A DNA stretch of 20,247 bases from positions 1 through 20,247 of the IMG/VR virus record IMGVR_UViG_3300037133_000036; one strand, given 5' to 3'. This document shows positions 6,613-19,300 of the stretch, piece by piece. Position numbers and translations under genes: made by a program. Position 1 is the first letter of the stretch. Every line of letters begins with the position of its first letter. Source of the stretch: a virus. The notes below the pieces were generated by a model. That model did not search any database, was not told where the DNA came from, and was given only the letters and a program-made list of their open reading frames with translations.

Positions 6613-6641
6613 TTGACACGGTATGCGGACTGACCGATGAT
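6613..6641 (+). promoter_or_regulatory. Sigma70-type promoter for the rightward moron
   Basis: A perfect TTGACA (6613 to 6618), a 17-base spacer and GATGAT (6636 to 6641, four of six matches to TATAAT) point rightward. Transcription would start near 6648, a few bases before the first stem of the structured leader. Unlike the late elements it has a full -35, so the host polymerase could use it without phage help. Confidence 0.55.
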
Positions 6642-6653
6642 TGCCTCGTTGGA

Positions 6654-6748
6654 GTTGAGCCCAACCTTATCCCTCACATCTCGCCATCCTGCCTATCCGT
6701 CCAGTTTGCCCATTCATTGGGGCTCAACCAAACAGGAGATAGGCAGGA
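6654..6748 (+). ncRNA. Pseudoknotted 5' leader RNA, copy 1 (candidate cis-regulatory element)
   Basis: Two perfect inverted repeats cross each other. Stem A is GTTGAGCCC (6654-6662) with GGGCTCAAC (6720-6728). Stem B is TCCTGCCTATC (6687-6697) with GATAGGCAGGA (6738-6748). The order A, B, A', B' is that of an H-type pseudoknot or of two mutually exclusive folds. A small hairpin CCCA/TGGG (6709-6712, 6718-6721) abuts A'. The element lies just after the predicted transcription start and ends 15 bases before the GTG of the next gene, beside its ribosome site. A second copy with different stem sequences but the same plan is at 14453-14550 on the other strand. Function and ligand unknown. Confidence 0.75.
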
Positions 6749-6763
6749 CCTTTGGAGTCCACC

Positions 6764-7102
6764 GTGGACATCGATACCCTCACCATCAAGGAAGCGCGTC
6801 AGATCGCCAATCTATTCGCTATTGAAAAGACAGTGGCAGCGCTCCACGTCCCGTTCGAGGTCGGCAAGGCTTACCTCATCCGCACCGTGACCATGGCGTG
6901 GACCGGCCGCGTGACCGCCATTTACCCCGAATTCCTCACCATGGAAGACGGCGCCTGGATCGCTGATACCGGCCGCTATCATGAGGCCATCGCGCAAGGC
7001 GTGTTCAGCGAGGTCGAGCCGGCCGGCAATGTCATCATCGGCATCGGGTCCATCGTGGACGCCATCGAATGGAAGCACGATCTCCCGATGAAGGTTAAGT
7101 GA
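6764..7102 (+). CDS. Moron protein of unknown function (KEAR...AWIADTGR family)
   Basis: This gene lies on the strand opposite to the late genes that flank it. I choose GTG 6764 because GGAG lies six bases upstream; an in-frame TTG at 6752 has no proper ribosome site. The 112-residue protein begins MDIDTLTIKEARQIANLF and has a central YLIRTVTMAWTGRVTAIYP segment, then AWIADTGRYHEAIAQG, VEPAGNVIIGIGSIVDA and a terminal WKHDLPMK. I recall this pattern from small proteins in other phages and prophages, often followed by a gene made of dipeptide-like repeats, as here. It has no signal peptide or membrane segment. Its stop overlaps the next ATG by one base. Function unknown. Confidence 0.72.
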   Translation: MDIDTLTIKEARQIANLFAIEKTVAALHVPFEVGKAYLIRTVTMAWTGRVTAIYPEFLTMEDGAWIADTGRYHEAIAQGVFSEVEPAGNVIIGIGSIVDAIEWKHDLPMKVK

Positions 7103-7302
7103 TGAACGCCGCCATTGGAAGAACCGGGTATGTAATGTCGCGGTCGCGGTCGTGGTCGGGGTCGGGGTCGGGGTCGTGGTCGCGGTCGCGGTCGCGGTCG
7201 CGGTCGTGGTCGTGGTCGTGGTCGTGGTCGCGGTCGCGGTCGGGGTCGCGGTCGTGGTCGGGGTCGTGGTCGGGGTCGGGGTCGCGGTCGCGGTCGCTCT
7301 AA
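7102..7302 (+). CDS. Ultra-low-complexity (RS/WS/GS)n protein
   Basis: ATG 7102 shares a base with the stop of the upstream gene (TGATG), which argues that it is translated. After a short unique start (MNAAIGRTGYVMS) nearly every second residue is serine, alternating with R, W or G, up to a final L. There is no known fold for such a sequence and it is probably disordered. The 66-residue product could be a peptide with its own role, or the repeats may matter as DNA or RNA. The ORF stops 21 bases before the terminator that ends this unit. Confidence 0.5.
   Translation: MNAAIGRTGYVMSRSRSWSGSGSGSWSRSRSRSRSWSWSWSWSRSRSGSRSWSGSWSGSGSRSRSL
7138..7296 (+). repeat. Hexanucleotide tandem array (HGG TCG, H or G in first place)
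   Basis: About 26 units of six bases read tcg followed by cgg, tgg or ggg. Only the first base of the second codon varies. The array is in frame with the 7102 ORF and keeps all three plus frames and one minus frame open. Such an array is prone to slippage, in units that preserve the frame. Confidence 0.95.
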
Positions 7303-7323
7303 GCAAAAACAGGGAATACAAGG

Positions 7324-7346
7324 TGCCCCATTCGTGGGGCATTTTT
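7324..7346 (+). terminator. Rho-independent terminator of the rightward moron
   Basis: TGCCCCA (7324-7330), loop TTCG, TGGGGCA (7335-7341) and five T form a textbook terminator pointing right. The stop codon of the large terminase on the other strand (TAA, 7347 to 7345) lies inside the T run. In the leftward direction the hairpin is not followed by a T run. Confidence 0.88.
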
Positions 7347-11768: not shown

Positions 11769-12031
11769 TTCGTAGGTCCTTCCACTGTCTGGATGTTGAT
11801 GGTCACCTTGACAACCCTGGCCTTGTTCTTCGGGATGCCAATGCGAATGCAGGCAACCCTAGCTTTGGCCCTGGTTTCAAACACTGCTGTCCGGCAGGCC
11901 CCCAGATAATTAGGCACTTTTGCATCCCCAGCTTCCCATGCCCAAAACGAGATGCCACATAAGAACGGCTTTTCTCCTGGCCATTGGCATTGGACTGCCC
12001 AACCTTTGTATGTTTTTTGCACAGGGCTCAT
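11765..12031 (-). CDS. Small phage protein of unknown function
   Basis: This 88-residue protein starts MSPVQKTYKGWAVQCQWPG, contains FETRAKARVACIRIGIPKN and ends in a beta strand (RVVKVTINIQTVEG). The middle pattern T-R-A-K-A-R-x-x-A and the strand ARVVKVTI are familiar from small proteins in replication operons of phages. I know no function. The start overlaps the helicase stop as ATGA. Confidence 0.65.
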   Translation of the reverse strand: MSPVQKTYKGWAVQCQWPGEKPFLCGISFWAWEAGDAKVPNYLGACRTAVFETRAKARVACIRIGIPKNKARVVKVTINIQTVEGPTK

Positions 12032-13383
12032 GCGAAATCCTCCGTGAGGTAGGAAAGTGGCGCGGGGTTGGCGAACCCGGAATCTTCCGAGGTCTGCCGT
12101 TCGAGTTCGATGTAGCGGGTGATTTCAGGTTTGAAGCTGAGGGGCAGCGTCATGCAGGGCCCGTTTCGGTGCTTGGCGATGATGAGTTCCGTGCTGGTCT
12201 GGGCCATGGCCCGGTGAATGAAGATCACCATGTCTGCGTCCTGCTCGATGCAGCCCGAATCCCGAAGGTCTGAAAGCTGAGGCTTGCCGGCCTGGCGCTT
12301 CTCCACCTCGCGGTTGAGCTGGGATAGCAGAACCACAGGAACATGCCGGTCCTTCGCCAGCAGTTTCAGCGCCCGGGTAATCTCCCCGATGCGCACCGTC
12401 TCGCTCTGGTTCTTCGCTCCCGGGGCGGACGTGAGCAACTGGAGGTAATCGATCACCAGGAGATCCAGCTTCCCGTGCCGGCCGATGATCCGGTCAGCCT
12501 GGGCGCAGATTTCAGGGACGGTGATTTTGGCCCGATCCGAGACATGGAGCGGAAGCTCGTCAACCTCCATTTTCCCCTGGGCGAACAGGCTGAAGGATTC
12601 CTGGTCGTGTTCCTCGATCATCTTCCGGGTGTCCACGCCGCTCTTGTCGGAAACCAGACGGTTCCAGAGTTCTTCCTTAGGCATTTCCAGGCTAAAGAAC
12701 GCGGCCCGCTTCCCGTTCATCCCGGCCCGTAGTAGCCAATTCATGGCCAGGGCCGATTTCCCGATGCCTGGGCGGGCCGCTAGGACGATCAATTGACCCG
12801 GCTGGAGCCCATGGGTCAAACCGTTGAATCGGGGCCACCCGTGAAGCCTGGTGCCCATTACGGAGCGTCCCTCGACTTTGTCCAGCATTTCGGCCAGGGC
12901 ATCGTCGCTGAAATTGGCAACAGCCTCGATGTTCCCCTTGTCGCTGCTCTGGGCCATGGCGGAAAGGCTGGCGGACGCCTCGGCGACCACCTCAAGCGGG
13001 TCTGTATCGGCCGCCGTCTTGAGGATCCGATACCCGATGGCCTGGAGTTCCCGCTGTTTCCGGGCCGTCTGGAGGTAGCGGATCAACACTTCCGGCCGGC
13101 CTACTTCCTCGGCCTCCAGGATGGAATGGAGCCCGGTAATGTCCCCCACGATGTTGAGCGTCCCTTGAATGGCGAGCCGGTCCCGAAGGGTCAGGGAGTT
13201 AATTTCCTCGCCTTCGGTCACCAGGGAGCGCAGCGCCACGAAAACGGCCCGGTGGGATGGGACCAGGAAATCATGGTCCTGGAGGGTGGGGACCAGAACA
13301 GCGGCCGCATGTTCGGCACCGGGGGCGCAAAGGGTGGCGATGGTGGAACGCTCGGCTTCAGGGTTCTCCGGGACGGGGATCAC
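12028..13383 (-). CDS. dnaB: Replicative DNA helicase, DnaB family
   Basis: This 451-residue protein has the two DnaB domains. The N-terminal helical domain covers roughly residues 1-100 (NPEAERSTIATLC start, then DHDFLVPSHRAVFVALRSL). The RecA-like motor has Walker A ARPGIGKS (203-210), the H1a-type SLEMPKEELW (231-240), Walker B LVIDYLQL (309-316), LSQLNREVEKR (353-363) and an arginine-finger segment KHRNG (404-408). It is a hexameric helicase that moves 5' to 3' at the fork. Encoding its own DnaB and an initiator lets the phage form its own replisome core. It starts with GTG, overlapping the initiator stop as GTGA. Confidence 0.93.
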   Translation of the reverse strand: MIPVPENPEAERSTIATLCAPGAEHAAAVLVPTLQDHDFLVPSHRAVFVALRSLVTEGEEINSLTLRDRLAIQGTLNIVGDITGLHSILEAEEVGRPEVLIRYLQTARKQRELQAIGYRILKTAADTDPLEVVAEASASLSAMAQSSDKGNIEAVANFSDDALAEMLDKVEGRSVMGTRLHGWPRFNGLTHGLQPGQLIVLAARPGIGKSALAMNWLLRAGMNGKRAAFFSLEMPKEELWNRLVSDKSGVDTRKMIEEHDQESFSLFAQGKMEVDELPLHVSDRAKITVPEICAQADRIIGRHGKLDLLVIDYLQLLTSAPGAKNQSETVRIGEITRALKLLAKDRHVPVVLLSQLNREVEKRQAGKPQLSDLRDSGCIEQDADMVIFIHRAMAQTSTELIIAKHRNGPCMTLPLSFKPEITRYIELERQTSEDSGFANPAPLSYLTEDFA

Positions 13384-14225
13384 ATGGCCTCCAGTAAGAT
13401 CGGTTGCTGCTGTTTGGCCTTTTCATCGGCATGAGCAATAGCTTCCCTAGCCAAGGGGAGAAGTTGCCGGTATGGCTTCTTCTCGGGCCCGTAGAACGTG
13501 GAAACGTGCATGATCGCTTGGTCCCGGTATTCCCAGGCGTCCATGATCCGCTGCTTTAAGTCTGGGTAGAGTTCAGCCTTGGCATAGAGCATCCCGCAGC
13601 CCTTCAACTCACGGGCGGTAGCTTCCCCGGAATCAATGATCTTTTGGAAGGCCCTGGCAGCAGCAGCGAACGGTCCCTTGTGGGCCTTCCCACCATTGGG
13701 GTCCTGGGTTGGCCAAGCTTGGTAAACAGGCCGCAGGGATTCTTCTGCTTCTGGGGAGCAATCCAATTCCACCTTCCCTGGCTTGCCCTTCTTCCCGGAA
13801 GTAGCGGTAGCTACTTCTCGGTCCTTTGGTCCTTGGTCCCTTCCTTGATCCCCCGACGATAGTTCGCGAGTATTCGCGAGGATTCGCGAGGATTCGTCGA
13901 ATGGTGGTATTTTTGACTGGCTTGGTTTGTCTATCTTCTGGTGACTCAACCAGTTACAGATTTGGATATAGGAATCCGAACCATGGCTATAGCGGGAAAT
14001 ACAACCCTCAACCTGGAGTTCCTCAAGCCACCCATCAACCATAGTTTTAGCGTCGTCGTCATAGGGGAAAAGAAGGCTCGCGAGCATTCGCGAATTCCCG
14101 CGAAGCCTCCCCGAATCGTCAGCGAGGGTCCAAAGCATGATGAATGTGAGACGAGCATCCCTGGAAACTCGGCCCATAGATTCAGACTGGGGAAACTCTG
14201 GCTTGATGGTTCGGATTCTAGCCAT
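13380..14225 (-). CDS. Phage replication initiator (winged-helix O-like protein)
   Basis: This 281-residue protein begins MARIRTIKPEFPQSESM and has TFIMLWTLADDSGRLRG and LASLLFPYDDDA, the N-terminal DNA-binding domain typical of phage replication proteins that precede a helicase gene. The middle (about 115 to 160) is a low-complexity linker. The C-terminal part (LRPVYQAWPTQDPNGGKAHKG, then helices) resembles the part that contacts helicase or loader. The start overlaps the upstream stop as TAATG. As in lambda O, clustered 10-base repeats lie within the gene, so it may contain the origin it binds. The role is inferred from the domain and the adjacent dnaB. Confidence 0.78.
   Translation of the reverse strand: MARIRTIKPEFPQSESMGRVSRDARLTFIMLWTLADDSGRLRGNSRMLASLLFPYDDDAKTMVDGWLEELQVEGCISRYSHGSDSYIQICNWLSHQKIDKPSQSKIPPFDESSRILANTRELSSGDQGRDQGPKDREVATATSGKKGKPGKVELDCSPEAEESLRPVYQAWPTQDPNGGKAHKGPFAAAARAFQKIIDSGEATARELKGCGMLYAKAELYPDLKQRIMDAWEYRDQAIMHVSTFYGPEKKPYRQLLPLAREAIAHADEKAKQQQPILLEAM
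13861..13900. repeat. Iteron-like 10-bp repeats, cluster 1 (candidate origin)
   Basis: TCGCGA occurs at exact 10-base intervals (starting 13864, 13874, 13884), with a degenerate fourth unit TCGTCGA at 13894. The unit is about TTCGCGAGGA. Ten bases is one helical turn but not a multiple of three, so the repeat is not caused by a repeated peptide. It lies in the linker-coding part of the initiator gene, as the lambda origin does in O. Confidence 0.6.
14078..14104. repeat. Iteron-like 10-bp repeats, cluster 2
   Basis: TCGCGA at 14078 and 14088 and CCGCGAA at 14098 again fall exactly 10 bases apart. The stretch encodes the RGNSRMLAS segment, which is well kept in the protein family, so part of this cluster may be forced by the protein. 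It lies about 214 bases from cluster 1. Confidence 0.4.
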
Positions 14226-14434
14226 TACCCCACCTGGGGGTAATTCTTGGCGATCTGGTCAAGTCGATAGGCAACCATTCGGAGCACGGGAGCCAGATCG
14301 GGCGTCAGCAGTAGCGGAGTGTCCCCATCTGTAATGAGTTCAACCTTGTCGCCGTAAACTTCGATCCACCCTACATCATAGCCAAGTCCATATCTTTCCA
14401 TGTTGGGGACAGTATTTTCATTCCTCTTAGCCAT
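14225..14434 (-). CDS. Small protein downstream of the structured leader, unknown function
   Basis: This 69-residue protein starts MAKRNENTVPNMERYGLGYD, continues VGWIEVYGDKVELITDGDTP and ends with a helix (LAPVLRMVAYRLDQIAKN). TAGGA lies seven bases upstream of the ATG and the leader pseudoknot ends 18 bases before it. It is the first gene after promoter-like copy 5 and is coupled to the initiator by TAATG. Its control may therefore set the level of the replication genes. No function recognised. Confidence 0.65.
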   Translation of the reverse strand: MAKRNENTVPNMERYGLGYDVGWIEVYGDKVELITDGDTPLLLTPDLAPVLRMVAYRLDQIAKNYPQVG

Positions 14435-14452
14435 AGCATTGTCCTAGCGGTT

Positions 14453-14550
14453 TCCCACCCTTCCTCTGATCGGTTGCACTTGCCCGCACTGGGCAACGAC
14501 GAGAGATAGGGTGGGATGGGGGAGAAATGATGGATAATCCAGGTGCAACC
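14453..14550 (-). ncRNA. Pseudoknotted 5' leader RNA, copy 2 (candidate cis-regulatory element)
   Basis: In transcript order (minus strand): stem A GGTTGCAC (14550-14543), stem B TCCCACCCT (14516-14508), hairpin C TTGCCC/GGGCAA with a five-base loop (14496-14480), A' GTGCAACC (14479-14472), B' AGGGTGGGA (14461-14453). All are perfect, and A and B cross. B can extend by four pairs past one mismatch. Between A and B lies TTATCC, TCA, CATCC, also found in copy 1; after A' lies CAACC then CAG, also shared. Spacings A-B, B-A', A'-B' and B'-start are 26, 28, 10 and 18 here against 24, 22, 9 and 15 in copy 1. Only the stem bases differ, in paired fashion. Confidence 0.78.
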
Positions 14551-14558
14551 CTGATACT

Positions 14559-14567
14559 TATATTATA
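14559..14567 (-). promoter_or_regulatory. Promoter-like element TATAATATA (copy 5), upstream of the replication genes
   Basis: The minus strand reads GATATAATATAAGTATCAGGG, placed right after the stop of the 64-residue gene. Transcription would start near 14555, about five bases before stem A of the leader. It shares the nine-base word with the four late copies but not the CTATAA start or the GTGACCC tail. Confidence 0.5.
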
Positions 14568-14570
14568 TCC

Positions 14571-14765
14571 CTATGCCGGTTTGGCGTCAAGCACTTGCTG
14601 GGGTTCGCCGGCCAACCTGGACGCGCTTTGCAGCTTTGACTTTGCCGCCAAAAGGTCTGTGACGGCGCGGTTTACCAGTGCCCTGGCGGTTCCGTCTGGG
14701 ACTTCGAGCGCGGACGCCTGAACGGTGATCTGGGCCACGATGAGGGACGCTTCCCGACAGTTCAT
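14571..14765 (-). CDS. Small helical protein of unknown function
   Basis: This 64-residue protein (MNCREASLIVAQITVQASAL onward) is predicted to be nearly all helix, with LVNRAVTDLLAAKSKLQSA, and ends in AKPA. Its start overlaps the upstream stop as ATGA, and its TAG stop is followed at once by promoter-like copy 5. No function recognised. Confidence 0.6.
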   Translation of the reverse strand: MNCREASLIVAQITVQASALEVPDGTARALVNRAVTDLLAAKSKLQSASRLAGEPQQVLDAKPA

Positions 14766-15631
14766 GATTTTGCCTTAAACCGGCCCTTGGCGTCTCGAAT
14801 TGGAACATCCTTGGTGCCGAATTTCGCCTTGAGCCAGTCCGCGCACAGCGCCAGGATAAGCCCATATTCAGAGATTTGATCCGCAGTATATCTCTGGACT
14901 TTCCCTATAGACTGGAAGTGCATTTGCCATTGGGAGACCGAGTGGCACTGGCATCCGATCTGGATATGCGTGTGGCTACACGTGGTAACGCCGTGGCGGG
15001 TTCCCTGGATGTAGAGAGGGGAGAACTCCCAGGCATCGCCGGAGACCCTGGCATTGCCGGAGACCTGGGCATCGCCGGAGACCCGGGCATTGCCGAAGAC
15101 CCGGGTATCGCCGAAGACCCGGGCATCACCGTAGACCCTGGCATTGCCGAAGACCCGGGCATTGCCGTAGACCTGGGCATTGCCGGAGACCTGGGCATCG
15201 CCGGAGACCTGGGCATTGCCGGAGACCTGGGCATCGCCGGAGACCCGGGCATTGCCGAAGACCCGGGTATCGCCGAAGACCCGGGCATCACCGTAGACCC
15301 TGGCATTGCCGAAGACCCGGGCATTGCCGTAGACCTGGGCATTGCCGGAGACCTGGGCATCGCCGAAGACCTGGGCATTGCCGAAGACCCGGGCATTGCC
15401 GTAGACCCGGGCATTGCCGGAGACCTGGGCATCGCCGAAGACCTGGGCATTGCCGAAGACCCGGGCATTGCCGTAGACCCGGGCATTGCCGGAGACCATC
15501 CCCTCGACAGTCACGGACGCATCCACATGTGCCGTATCCTGGACCCATCCTCCCCCTTTGATGTGCTGGTGCCACTCCCCACGGACCAAGGGGCCGAGTT
15601 TGGCCTGCAATTCTTTGAATGTGATGCTCAT
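14762..15631 (-). CDS. Hexapeptide-repeat left-handed beta-helix protein (YdcK-like)
   Basis: This 289-residue protein has an N-terminal part (MSITFKELQAKLGPL, GGGWVQDTAHVDASVTVEG), 26 near-perfect hexapeptides of the form [SYF]-G-[ND]-[AT]-[RQ]-V, and a C-terminal domain (CSHTHIQIGCQCHSVSQW, then DQISEYGLILALCADWLKAK). The repeats fit the rule for left-handed parallel beta-helices (aliphatic, two spacers, small residue). E. coli YdcK has a similar plan with GNARVYGNA-type repeats and a C-terminal cap. At three hexapeptides per turn this gives eight to nine turns. It shows no acyltransferase active site that I can recognise. In phages such proteins are known but their role is not. Overlaps RusA by ATGA. 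Confidence 0.82.
   Translation of the reverse strand: MSITFKELQAKLGPLVRGEWHQHIKGGGWVQDTAHVDASVTVEGMVSGNARVYGNARVFGNAQVFGDAQVSGNARVYGNARVFGNAQVFGDAQVSGNAQVYGNARVFGNARVYGDARVFGDTRVFGNARVSGDAQVSGNAQVSGDAQVSGNAQVYGNARVFGNARVYGDARVFGDTRVFGNARVSGDAQVSGNARVSGDAWEFSPLYIQGTRHGVTTCSHTHIQIGCQCHSVSQWQMHFQSIGKVQRYTADQISEYGLILALCADWLKAKFGTKDVPIRDAKGRFKAKS
15030..15497 (-). repeat. 18-bp tandem repeats with 162-bp and 72-bp higher-order duplications
   Basis: Twenty-six 18-base units encode the hexapeptides. A nine-unit block (162 bp) is repeated almost exactly: the sequence starting at 15079 returns at 15241. At the coding 5' side a four-unit block (72 bp) is also doubled. The near identity at silent positions means recent expansion by unequal recombination or slippage. 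Confidence 0.93.
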
Positions 15632-16918: not shown

Positions 16919-17155
16919 TTACTTTCTGCCGGGTTTTGCCTTGTCAACACGATGCGTCACGGGCTTAATTCGGATAAGTTCTGATGCAAGGATCACGTCA
17001 TTAGACGCAGCCTGGATGGGGTCCGCCACGTCTAGGGTTGGGCGCTTGGCCCCGCTGAAGATCTTGTAGAGGTAGCACCTTGTGATGCCAACTCGGGACG
17101 CGATTTCAGCCGGGTCCATGCCGTGATCTCTAAGGCGCTTCGTAAATCTGTTCAT
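16919..17155 (-). CDS. XRE/Cro-like helix-turn-helix regulator
   Basis: This 78-residue protein starts MNRFTKRLRDHGMDPAEIA and contains a helix-turn-helix at about residues 13 to 40 (PAEIASRVGITRCYLYKIFS, then GAKRPTLDVA). The basic C-terminus (VTHRVDKAKPGRK) may stabilise DNA binding. It lacks the peptidase or oligomerisation domain of CI repressors, so it resembles Cro or a small repressor. It is the first gene of the leftward operon, facing the divergent control region, where it probably binds. Confidence 0.75.
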   Translation of the reverse strand: MNRFTKRLRDHGMDPAEIASRVGITRCYLYKIFSGAKRPTLDVADPIQAASNDVILASELIRIKPVTHRVDKAKPGRK

Positions 17156-18212: not shown

Positions 18213-18428
18213 ATGACACCGATTCAGGAAGCAGCCGAAGCAATCGCAGAACGGCTCCTGATCTGGCACCGACTCGCCCAGCAATGCCACGAACGCGGCG
18301 AAGAAGGCGAGTGGATCGACCTGCGGGACATGTGGAACCCGGCAGATCAGGCAGCCATAGACAAATTCACGGAGGCCAAGGCCAGAGCGCAGGGCCTCCG
18401 TCCGCTATTCAGAGAGGATGCGTCATGA
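18213..18428 (+). CDS. Small protein upstream of RecT
   Basis: This 71-residue protein (MTPIQEAAEAIAERLLIWHR onward) has an acidic middle (ERGEEGEWIDLRDMWNPADQ) and a helical end. The ribosome site is weak (AGGT). Its stop overlaps the RecT start as ATGA, so it may be coupled with recombination. Function unknown. Confidence 0.62.
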   Translation: MTPIQEAAEAIAERLLIWHRLAQQCHERGEEGEWIDLRDMWNPADQAAIDKFTEAKARAQGLRPLFREDAS

Positions 18429-19300
18429 ACGCTGAGCTGCGAACCACCACGCCCATGGGGTTGACGGGGTTCACCCGTGATTCCGTGGACCTGCTGAAGA
18501 CCACGATCTGCAAGGGCAGCACGGATGACGAACTCAAGTTGTTCGTTCAGGTCTGCCAGCGCACCGGACTAGACCCCTTCGCCCGCCAAATCTTTGCCGT
18601 CCACCGGAAGGACAACAAGACCGGAACAATGGTAATGAGCATCCAAACCAGCATCGACGGGTTCCGGCTGATCGCCGAACGGTCCAAGAATTACGCCGGC
18701 CAGCGCGGGCCATTCTGGACGGCTGACGGGGAACACTGGAAGGAAGTCTGGTTGGCCAAAGATGCGCCAGCAGCGGCGAAGGTTGGCATCATGCGCCGGG
18801 GGTTCTCCGAACCGCTCTGGGCCGTTGCCACCTGGGAAGAATTTTGCCCCACCTATAATGGCCAGCCAATGGGCCTATGGCGGAAGCTGGGGCCGCTTAT
18901 GCTGGCCAAGTGCGCAGAGTCCCAGGGCCTTCGTAGGGCCTTCCCACAGGACCTGAGCGGGATCTACACCGAAGAGGAAATGGCCCAGGCCGTGGAGGCC
19001 GTGGAGGCCGAGACAGTCCCTGAAGTAGTGGAATGGACGGACGATGAACGGCAGGAGGCTAGACTCCAGGTGGCTGACCTGGCCGATGCGCTGATGGAGG
19101 CCGGATGCGATGAAGATGAAATGAAAGATATCGTGGCAAAGCCTACCGCGACGATTGGAACAACCGACACCTTCGACCGATGGGCAAACCGGCTTCTGGG
19201 TTACCGGGATCGGGTCATGGCGAAACACAAGCCTGCGCCTAAGGCTAACTCCGAAGAAGTGGCCAATCTGGCCGAAACCTACGCGAAGAATCCGGCATGA
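18425..19300 (+). CDS. bet: RecT/Bet-family single-strand annealing protein
   Basis: ATG 18425 has GAGAGGA upstream and overlaps the preceding stop. The 291-residue protein has the Bet pattern: LKLFVQVCQRTGLDPFARQI (about 37-56), VMSIQTSIDGFRLIAERS (about 71-88), GFSEPLWAVATW and KLGPLMLAKCAESQGLRRAF, then GIYTEEEM. Beta-type proteins bind and anneal complementary single strands. A partner exonuclease is not seen; it may lie to the right of the window. The C-terminal third is acidic and variable, as usual. Confidence 0.87.
   Translation: MNAELRTTTPMGLTGFTRDSVDLLKTTICKGSTDDELKLFVQVCQRTGLDPFARQIFAVHRKDNKTGTMVMSIQTSIDGFRLIAERSKNYAGQRGPFWTADGEHWKEVWLAKDAPAAAKVGIMRRGFSEPLWAVATWEEFCPTYNGQPMGLWRKLGPLMLAKCAESQGLRRAFPQDLSGIYTEEEMAQAVEAVEAETVPEVVEWTDDERQEARLQVADLADALMEAGCDEDEMKDIVAKPTATIGTTDTFDRWANRLLGYRDRVMAKHKPAPKANSEEVANLAETYAKNPA

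Follow-up and report, generated by a model that had tools for sequence, protein, structure and literature searches.

A predicted pseudoknotted 5' leader RNA recurs in two phage lineages and may act on its own message

Two leaders within one phage sequence carry crossing inverted repeats in the same order, which raises the question of whether they represent one regulatory RNA and, if so, what that RNA might do. The sequence is a 20.2-kb virus record (IMGVR_UViG_3300037133_000036, 20,247 nt, referred to here in its whole length as the window), in which leader copy 1 (c1) spans 6654-6750 on the plus strand and leader copy 2 (c2) spans 14549-14449 on the minus strand. An earlier note had described the repeats, and its coordinates for copy 1 were reproduced: A pairs 6654-6662 with 6720-6728 (9 bp) and B pairs 6687-6697 with 6738-6748 (11 bp), both on the plus strand. 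On the minus strand, copy 2 likewise contains A (14550-14543 with 14479-14472, 8 bp), B (14516-14508 with 14461-14453, 9 bp), and the small hairpin beside A' (14496-14491 with 14485-14480, 6 bp). When the two copies are aligned in register, compensatory pair changes appear in both helices A and B, the linkers TTATCC, TCA, and TCTC agree, and the distance from B' to the start codon is 15 and 18 nt, all as that note had said. The window has no other crossing perfect pairs (at least 8 and at least 9 bp inside 110 nt) than these two. At least one such pair was present in 26 of 200 first-order Markov shuffles (mean 0.135 per window), so a single crossing pair could be due to chance, and the case for the element therefore rests on homology.

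A covariance model built from copies 1 and 2 with helix A alone paired (R1) was run on loci collected by terminase and DnaB homology. We found a third member (c3) at L114:353 (49 bits, E 7.5e-9), a locus whose terminase is 96% identical to that of the window, and two members on L177, an 11-kb contig of a distant phage whose DnaB is 38% identical: d1 at L177:14 (E 0.016) and d2 at L177:2711 (E 0.045). The scores of d1 and d2 are weak by themselves; we count both as members because features outside the model are present, namely helix B (8-10 bp), helix C, the CCC/GGG hairpin at A', and the position before a start codon. Indeed, in the members found with R1, helices B and C, which were not paired in the model, are still intact and covarying. 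The covariance-model search of phage genomes proposed earlier thus yielded further homologues with covarying stems, and these independent homologues settle that the matching spacing of the A and B repeats in the two copies, together with their aligned linkers, is not due to chance. Comparison with Rfam, including relaxed thresholds, gave no matching family; in Rfam 15 the only matches were weak, well short of the gathering scores, and involved eukaryotic miRNA, snoRNA, and lncRNA models and a single CRISPR repeat model. Homologues with covarying stems and the absence of an Rfam match bear out the proposal of a conserved cis-acting leader RNA. Judged from sequence comparison, the regulatory RNA is real and previously unlisted.

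The element is rare, with five distinct members (c1 and c2 in the window, c3, d1, and d2), and it occurs in two copies per genome in both the window group and the L177 lineage. Two near-identical relatives of the window (IMGVR 3300037149_000062 and 3300049729_000081) contain both copies. Their copy 1 leaders are 97/97 and 96/97 identical to that of the window, while the copy 1 ORF is 90.6-97.3% and the copy 1 promoter 88-90% identical, and one of the two has another N-terminal module in this ORF. Similarly, the L114 leader is 76% identical while the next gene is approximately 52% identical; the leader is retained and the following gene differs. Models trained on all five members (R2 and R3) found no further member in more than 1 Mb of sequence from related phages or in approximately 150 whole virus records. 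Exact linker patterns run over IMG/VR returned the known records and chance matches, and blastn of c1, c2, and d2 against GenBank phages gave no match. Among cultured relatives identified by terminase or helicase, no copy was found in Synechococcus phages Yong-M4-211 (first 50 kb) and S-H1 (L283, L284), and bacterial genomes of three phyla contained no member among 10 scored candidates per genome.

The alignments show one conserved predicted RNA fold, a pseudoknot of helices A, B, and C and hairpin H closed through linker L1. Its order is A (7 bp), L1 (21-27 nt across all members), B (10 positions), a bulge of 0-2 nt, C (9 positions, usually with 1-2 mismatches), H, A' (7 nt), C', B', and ACC, over a length of about 88-101 nt. 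The earlier description of crossing A and B helices with an adjoining hairpin holds, and what it had overlooked is helix C and the exact 7-nt bulge. When each leader is folded as a nested structure, the segments on either side of the hairpin, formerly read as linkers, pair with each other in all five members to form helix C, and B runs through C into H to give a continuous long stem. Between H and C this stem is interrupted by a bulge of exactly 7 nt, A', whose pairing partner is the 7-nt 5' terminus of the element; a 7-bp helix across this bulge would, by our estimate, brace the stem at an angle. In copy 1 (plus strand), the A 5' arm GTTGAGC (7 nt) occupies 6654-6660, the pyrimidine-rich L1 (27 nt) 6661-6687, the B 5' arm 6688-6697, the C 5' arm TCCAGTTTG 6700-6708, hairpin H (CCC, a 7-nt loop, and GGG) 6709-6721, the bulge A' (GCTCAAC, pairing with A) 6722-6728, the C 3' arm CAAACAGGA 6729-6737, the B 3' arm 6738-6747, and the invariant ACC 6748-6750. 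The GGG of this hairpin coincides with the two innermost pairs of the 9-bp A, which leaves the 7-bp A common to all members. The corresponding parts of copy 2 (minus strand) are the A 5' arm GTTGCAC (14543-14549), L1 (27 nt, 14516-14542), the B 5' arm (14506-14515), the C 5' arm CTCTCGTCG (14497-14505), hairpin H (TTGCCC, loop AGTGC, GGGCAA; 14480-14496), the 7-nt bulge A' GTGCAAC (14473-14479), the C 3' arm CGATCAGAG (14464-14472), the B 3' arm (14454-14463), and AA followed by the invariant ACC (14449-14453). The B' arm is purine-rich and might conceivably form a triplex with L1.

In a padded five-row alignment, 95.3% of cells are paired over 32 pairs, 19 of which show two-sided changes, with 33 further pair types. 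The covariation score was 0.659 versus 0.202 ± 0.041 in shuffles and at most 0.141 in slid registers, for an alignment of five sequences in which B was placed partly by pairing and length differences were filled with N padding. Helix A, which was placed by sequence, has seven of seven Watson-Crick pairs in every member, and its fifth pair occurs as all four pair types. We also scanned approximately 2.07 Mb with an independent descriptor consisting of a 7-mer complement, a hairpin, C, and B. With B of at least 8 bp, this descriptor returned only family members from the real sequences, and with B of at least 5 bp it gave 7 matches in 2.07 Mb of Markov shuffles, which were preferred over a reversed-sequence control because inverted repeats survive reversal. 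Nested folding energy alone lies 1.1-2.2 sd below shuffles. Invariant positions among the five sequences include G-T-n-G, ACC, and CCCA...GGG; invariant bases are scarce among the unpaired positions, which suggests that shape is conserved and not a ligand core.

We found that the element has a constant position between promoter and start codon. Within the 60 nt that precede each element, the best match to a sigma-70 promoter ends exactly 12 nt before A in six of six upstream regions, which represent four distinct members (c1 and its two variants, c2, c3, and d2; d1 lies at the contig end). In the window, these matches are TTGACA-17-GATGAT for copy 1 (6613-6641, plus strand) and TTGACG-17-TATAAT for copy 2 (14562-14590, minus strand). 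The start codon follows ACC by 12-15 nt in all five members. With these two distances, the element makes up approximately the whole 5'UTR, and the fixed spacing implies that promoter, RNA, and ribosome site form one fixed module. A Shine-Dalgarno-like GGAG is read from the sequence at 6754-6757 of the plus strand, between copy 1 and a 112-aa ORF with a GTG start (6764-7102); c3 is without a good Shine-Dalgarno sequence.

The genes behind the element vary. Copy 1 precedes the 112-aa ORF, which encodes a protein of a widespread unnamed family, and copy 2 precedes a 69-aa ORF (14225-14434), followed by genes for a replication initiation protein (13380-14225) and DnaB (12028-13383), all on the minus strand. 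Behind c3 there is directly a replication-initiation-type protein, which shares its C-terminus with that of the window; d1 is followed by a helicase and then a DNA methyltransferase, and d2 by a 67-aa ORF, a replication initiation protein, and DnaB. No mutual homology was detected among the first genes of the element-bearing units. Copy 2 and c3 have the upstream gene and promoter in common and differ in downstream content, which indicates that the leader belongs to the locus and not to a single gene. At L177:2424-3018, the small proteins flanking leader d2 look paralogous (RRKQRELGEVQVAL and RRLQRHLGEIQVAL).

We infer that the element acts post-transcriptionally on the message that carries it. 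A base-paired 5' end, together with a stem that abuts the ribosome footprint, suggests a role in translation and/or mRNA stability. Transcription would start approximately 6 nt 5' of A, and the RNA would fold while its 5' end emerges, tying up that end and placing the folded element flush against the footprint of the 30S ribosome. The fold could then determine how well the first gene of each bearing unit is translated and/or how stable its message is, and one phage or host protein factor might recognise the shape and co-regulate the units, by analogy with T4 gp32 and its leader pseudoknot. The occurrence of two copies in each of two unrelated phages suggests such a common factor; no RNA-binding protein common to the two phages was identified. 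We would give roughly even chances to this reading, a phage family of cis-acting 5'UTR RNAs through which a shared factor co-regulates the bearing units via translation and/or stability. More tentatively, the element could represent a new class of promoter-borne phage RNA with a previously unseen fold, in which the 7-nt bulge captures the mRNA 5' end and the duplicates bind one factor or the transcription or processing machinery. Attenuation is not evident, as there is no U-tailed terminator within the leader, and sequestration of the Shine-Dalgarno sequence is unsupported since the fold leaves it free; the fold thus offers no evident means of switching translation. Few phage regulatory leader RNAs are understood, and those that are, put and the gp32 operator, have come to serve as models for how genes are controlled. 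Because its consensus structure is complete, its boundaries are defined, and each genome offers two natural copies, the mechanism of the present element is directly testable, and a shared factor, if it exists, would define a phage post-transcriptional regulon.

In operators of the gene 32 type, the gene product binds the mRNA from which it is made and represses it. The leader of T4, T2, and RB69 gene 32 carries a 5'-terminal pseudoknot that is the translational operator for gp32 (PMC535899). The phage element is alike in placing a 5'-terminal pseudoknot 5' of the ribosome site, in a phage mRNA for DNA metabolism, and in the ACC(A) that follows the pseudoknot (PMC12710915). In contrast, the gene 32 operator comprises approximately 28 nt and, after these, an unstructured UUAAA region of more than 40 nt where gp32 spreads, whereas the phage element is 88-101 nt long, contains a long stem with an exact 7-nt bulge, has its start codon 12-15 nt away, and serves several units per phage. 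The SAS/ESAS elements of cluster K mycobacteriophages are repeated upstream of some gene starts, half of them with inverted repeats, and are thought to act in translation (PMC3203893). They too lie just before the start codons of a subset of genes; unlike the phage element, they conserve primary sequence and not covarying helices, occur in 11-19 copies, have no pseudoknot described, and, for SAS, contain the ribosome site itself.

In topology, the element resembles HDV-like ribozymes, which have a seven-bp P1 helix whose 3' arm comes directly after the 3-bp P3 hairpin and inside an outer helix. Theta ribozymes are HDV-like ribozymes of phages (PMC10879173). The strand order P1-P2-P3-P1'-P2' is shared, A is 7 bp in all five members, and H joins A' without a gap. 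Unlike these ribozymes, the element lacks P1.1 and the J4/2 junction with the catalytic C at its first position, since A' runs straight into C, and the counterpart of J1/2 is 21-27 nt; we therefore rejected an HDV-like ribozyme. The closest functional parallels are the gp32 operator, HK022 put, and cluster K SAS/ESAS, and the closest topology is that of the HDV-like fold.

Among the alternatives to regulation by a shared factor, a constitutive 5' insulator or stabiliser that works without a factor deserves some weight, and we regard it as rather unlikely. The knot would guard the mRNA 5' end and keep upstream sequence off the ribosome site, giving high expression from strong promoters, consistent with the constant spacing to promoter and start codon, the very stable stem (leader MFE -33 to -43 kcal/mol), and the conservation of shape with few unpaired bases. 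However, a plain hairpin would suffice for this purpose; the bulge of exactly 7 nt, the pseudoknot that it forms, and the unvarying G-T-n-G, ACC, and CCCA...GGG positions call for more. The predicted 5' stub of 5-6 nt is perhaps longer than classic protection of a 5' end would allow.

Antitermination of the put type is improbable. The put RNA binds the zinc-binding domain of the RNA polymerase beta' subunit and suppresses termination, and a nascent leader acting likewise would permit read-through of terminators. HK022 has two early promoters with two related leader RNAs of approximately 70 nt, putL and putR, downstream of them (PMC9378689). The phages studied here also have two copies per genome, on opposite strands in the window, and every copy with available upstream sequence lies just after a promoter match. 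Yet put consists of two directly joined stem-loops in a V shape, with a pseudoknot unmentioned in the putRNA paper (PMC9378689), while the phage element is a long bulged stem with a pseudoknot in all five members. Antitermination, which put exerts through polymerase, needs no constant distance to a start codon and put has none. We reasoned that this mechanism is less likely because the copy 1 unit has a terminator-like end of its own: a terminator-like hairpin (TGCCCC/GGGGCA followed by T5; 7324-7346, plus strand) lies 220 nt past its ORF, and all genes beyond it are on the opposite strand, so that read-through would be antisense. This hairpin was read by eye; the automatic terminator scan scored it in the minus-strand reading only.

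We consider a riboswitch for a small molecule slightly less probable still. A pseudoknotted leader adjoining a start codon would suit one, but few unpaired positions stay invariant among the five sequences, the downstream genes encode replication, DNA-metabolism, and orphan proteins and not metabolism, and no Rfam class matches. Very unlikely, in our view, is a tRNA-like substrate of RNase P, in which B and ACC would mimic an acceptor end and cleavage would fall in L1 at the base of B. ACC is present 3' of B in every member, RNase P cuts loop 1 of a model pseudoknot only with RCCA at the 3' end, and the T2/T4 gene 32 pseudoknot, which precedes ACCA, is a claimed substrate (PMC12710915). Against this, ACC is flush with B in c1, d1, and d2 but follows two extra bases in c2 and c3, ACCA occurs only in c3, and no tRNA is predicted in the window. 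Least probable of all is a signal acting as DNA, for example an origin of replication or a hairpin for single-strand initiation. Here c2, c3, and d2 do lie just upstream of replication initiation genes, but the orientation is always sense and the distances to promoter and start codon are fixed; in addition, c1 is found at a convergent moron-like gene, and a helicase gene follows d1.

Returning to the units that the leaders would control, copy 1 belongs to a self-contained convergent unit of promoter, leader, 112-aa ORF, repeat-rich ORF, and terminator-like hairpin. This unit (6613-7346, plus strand) is moron-like, lying between the portal and terminase genes and opposed to the structural genes. 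The C-terminal domain of the 112-aa protein (YLIRTVTMAWTGRV...EDxAWIADTGR) defines a widespread phage family, found at 95 IMG/VR loci and on 8 genome contigs, with no match in Pfam, PHROG, or PADLOC, no credible match in NCBIfam, and no solved structure. The fold is absent from the leaders of this domain's relatives (80 viral and 8 genomic), although some of these leaders have crossing repeats. Because none of these relatives' leaders share the fold, the RNA does not travel with the 112-aa protein family. At L003:2995-3402, a homologue with another N-terminal module and the same C-terminal domain stands behind an identical leader. The small second ORF of the copy 1 unit (7099-7302, plus strand) overlaps the end of the 112-aa ORF and encodes SR/SG repeats from an array of GGTCGN hexanucleotides, which differs in length in relative L003.

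For copy 2, no promoter-like site reads into the leader from the other side, and antisense control is thus unsupported. A gene for a YdcK-type beta-solenoid repeat protein with internal repeats lies at 14762-15631 on the minus strand of the window. The window also contains a RecT recombinase gene (18284-19300, plus strand) and a divergent gene for a small HTH protein (16919-17155, minus strand), which suggests an early control region near 17.2 kb.
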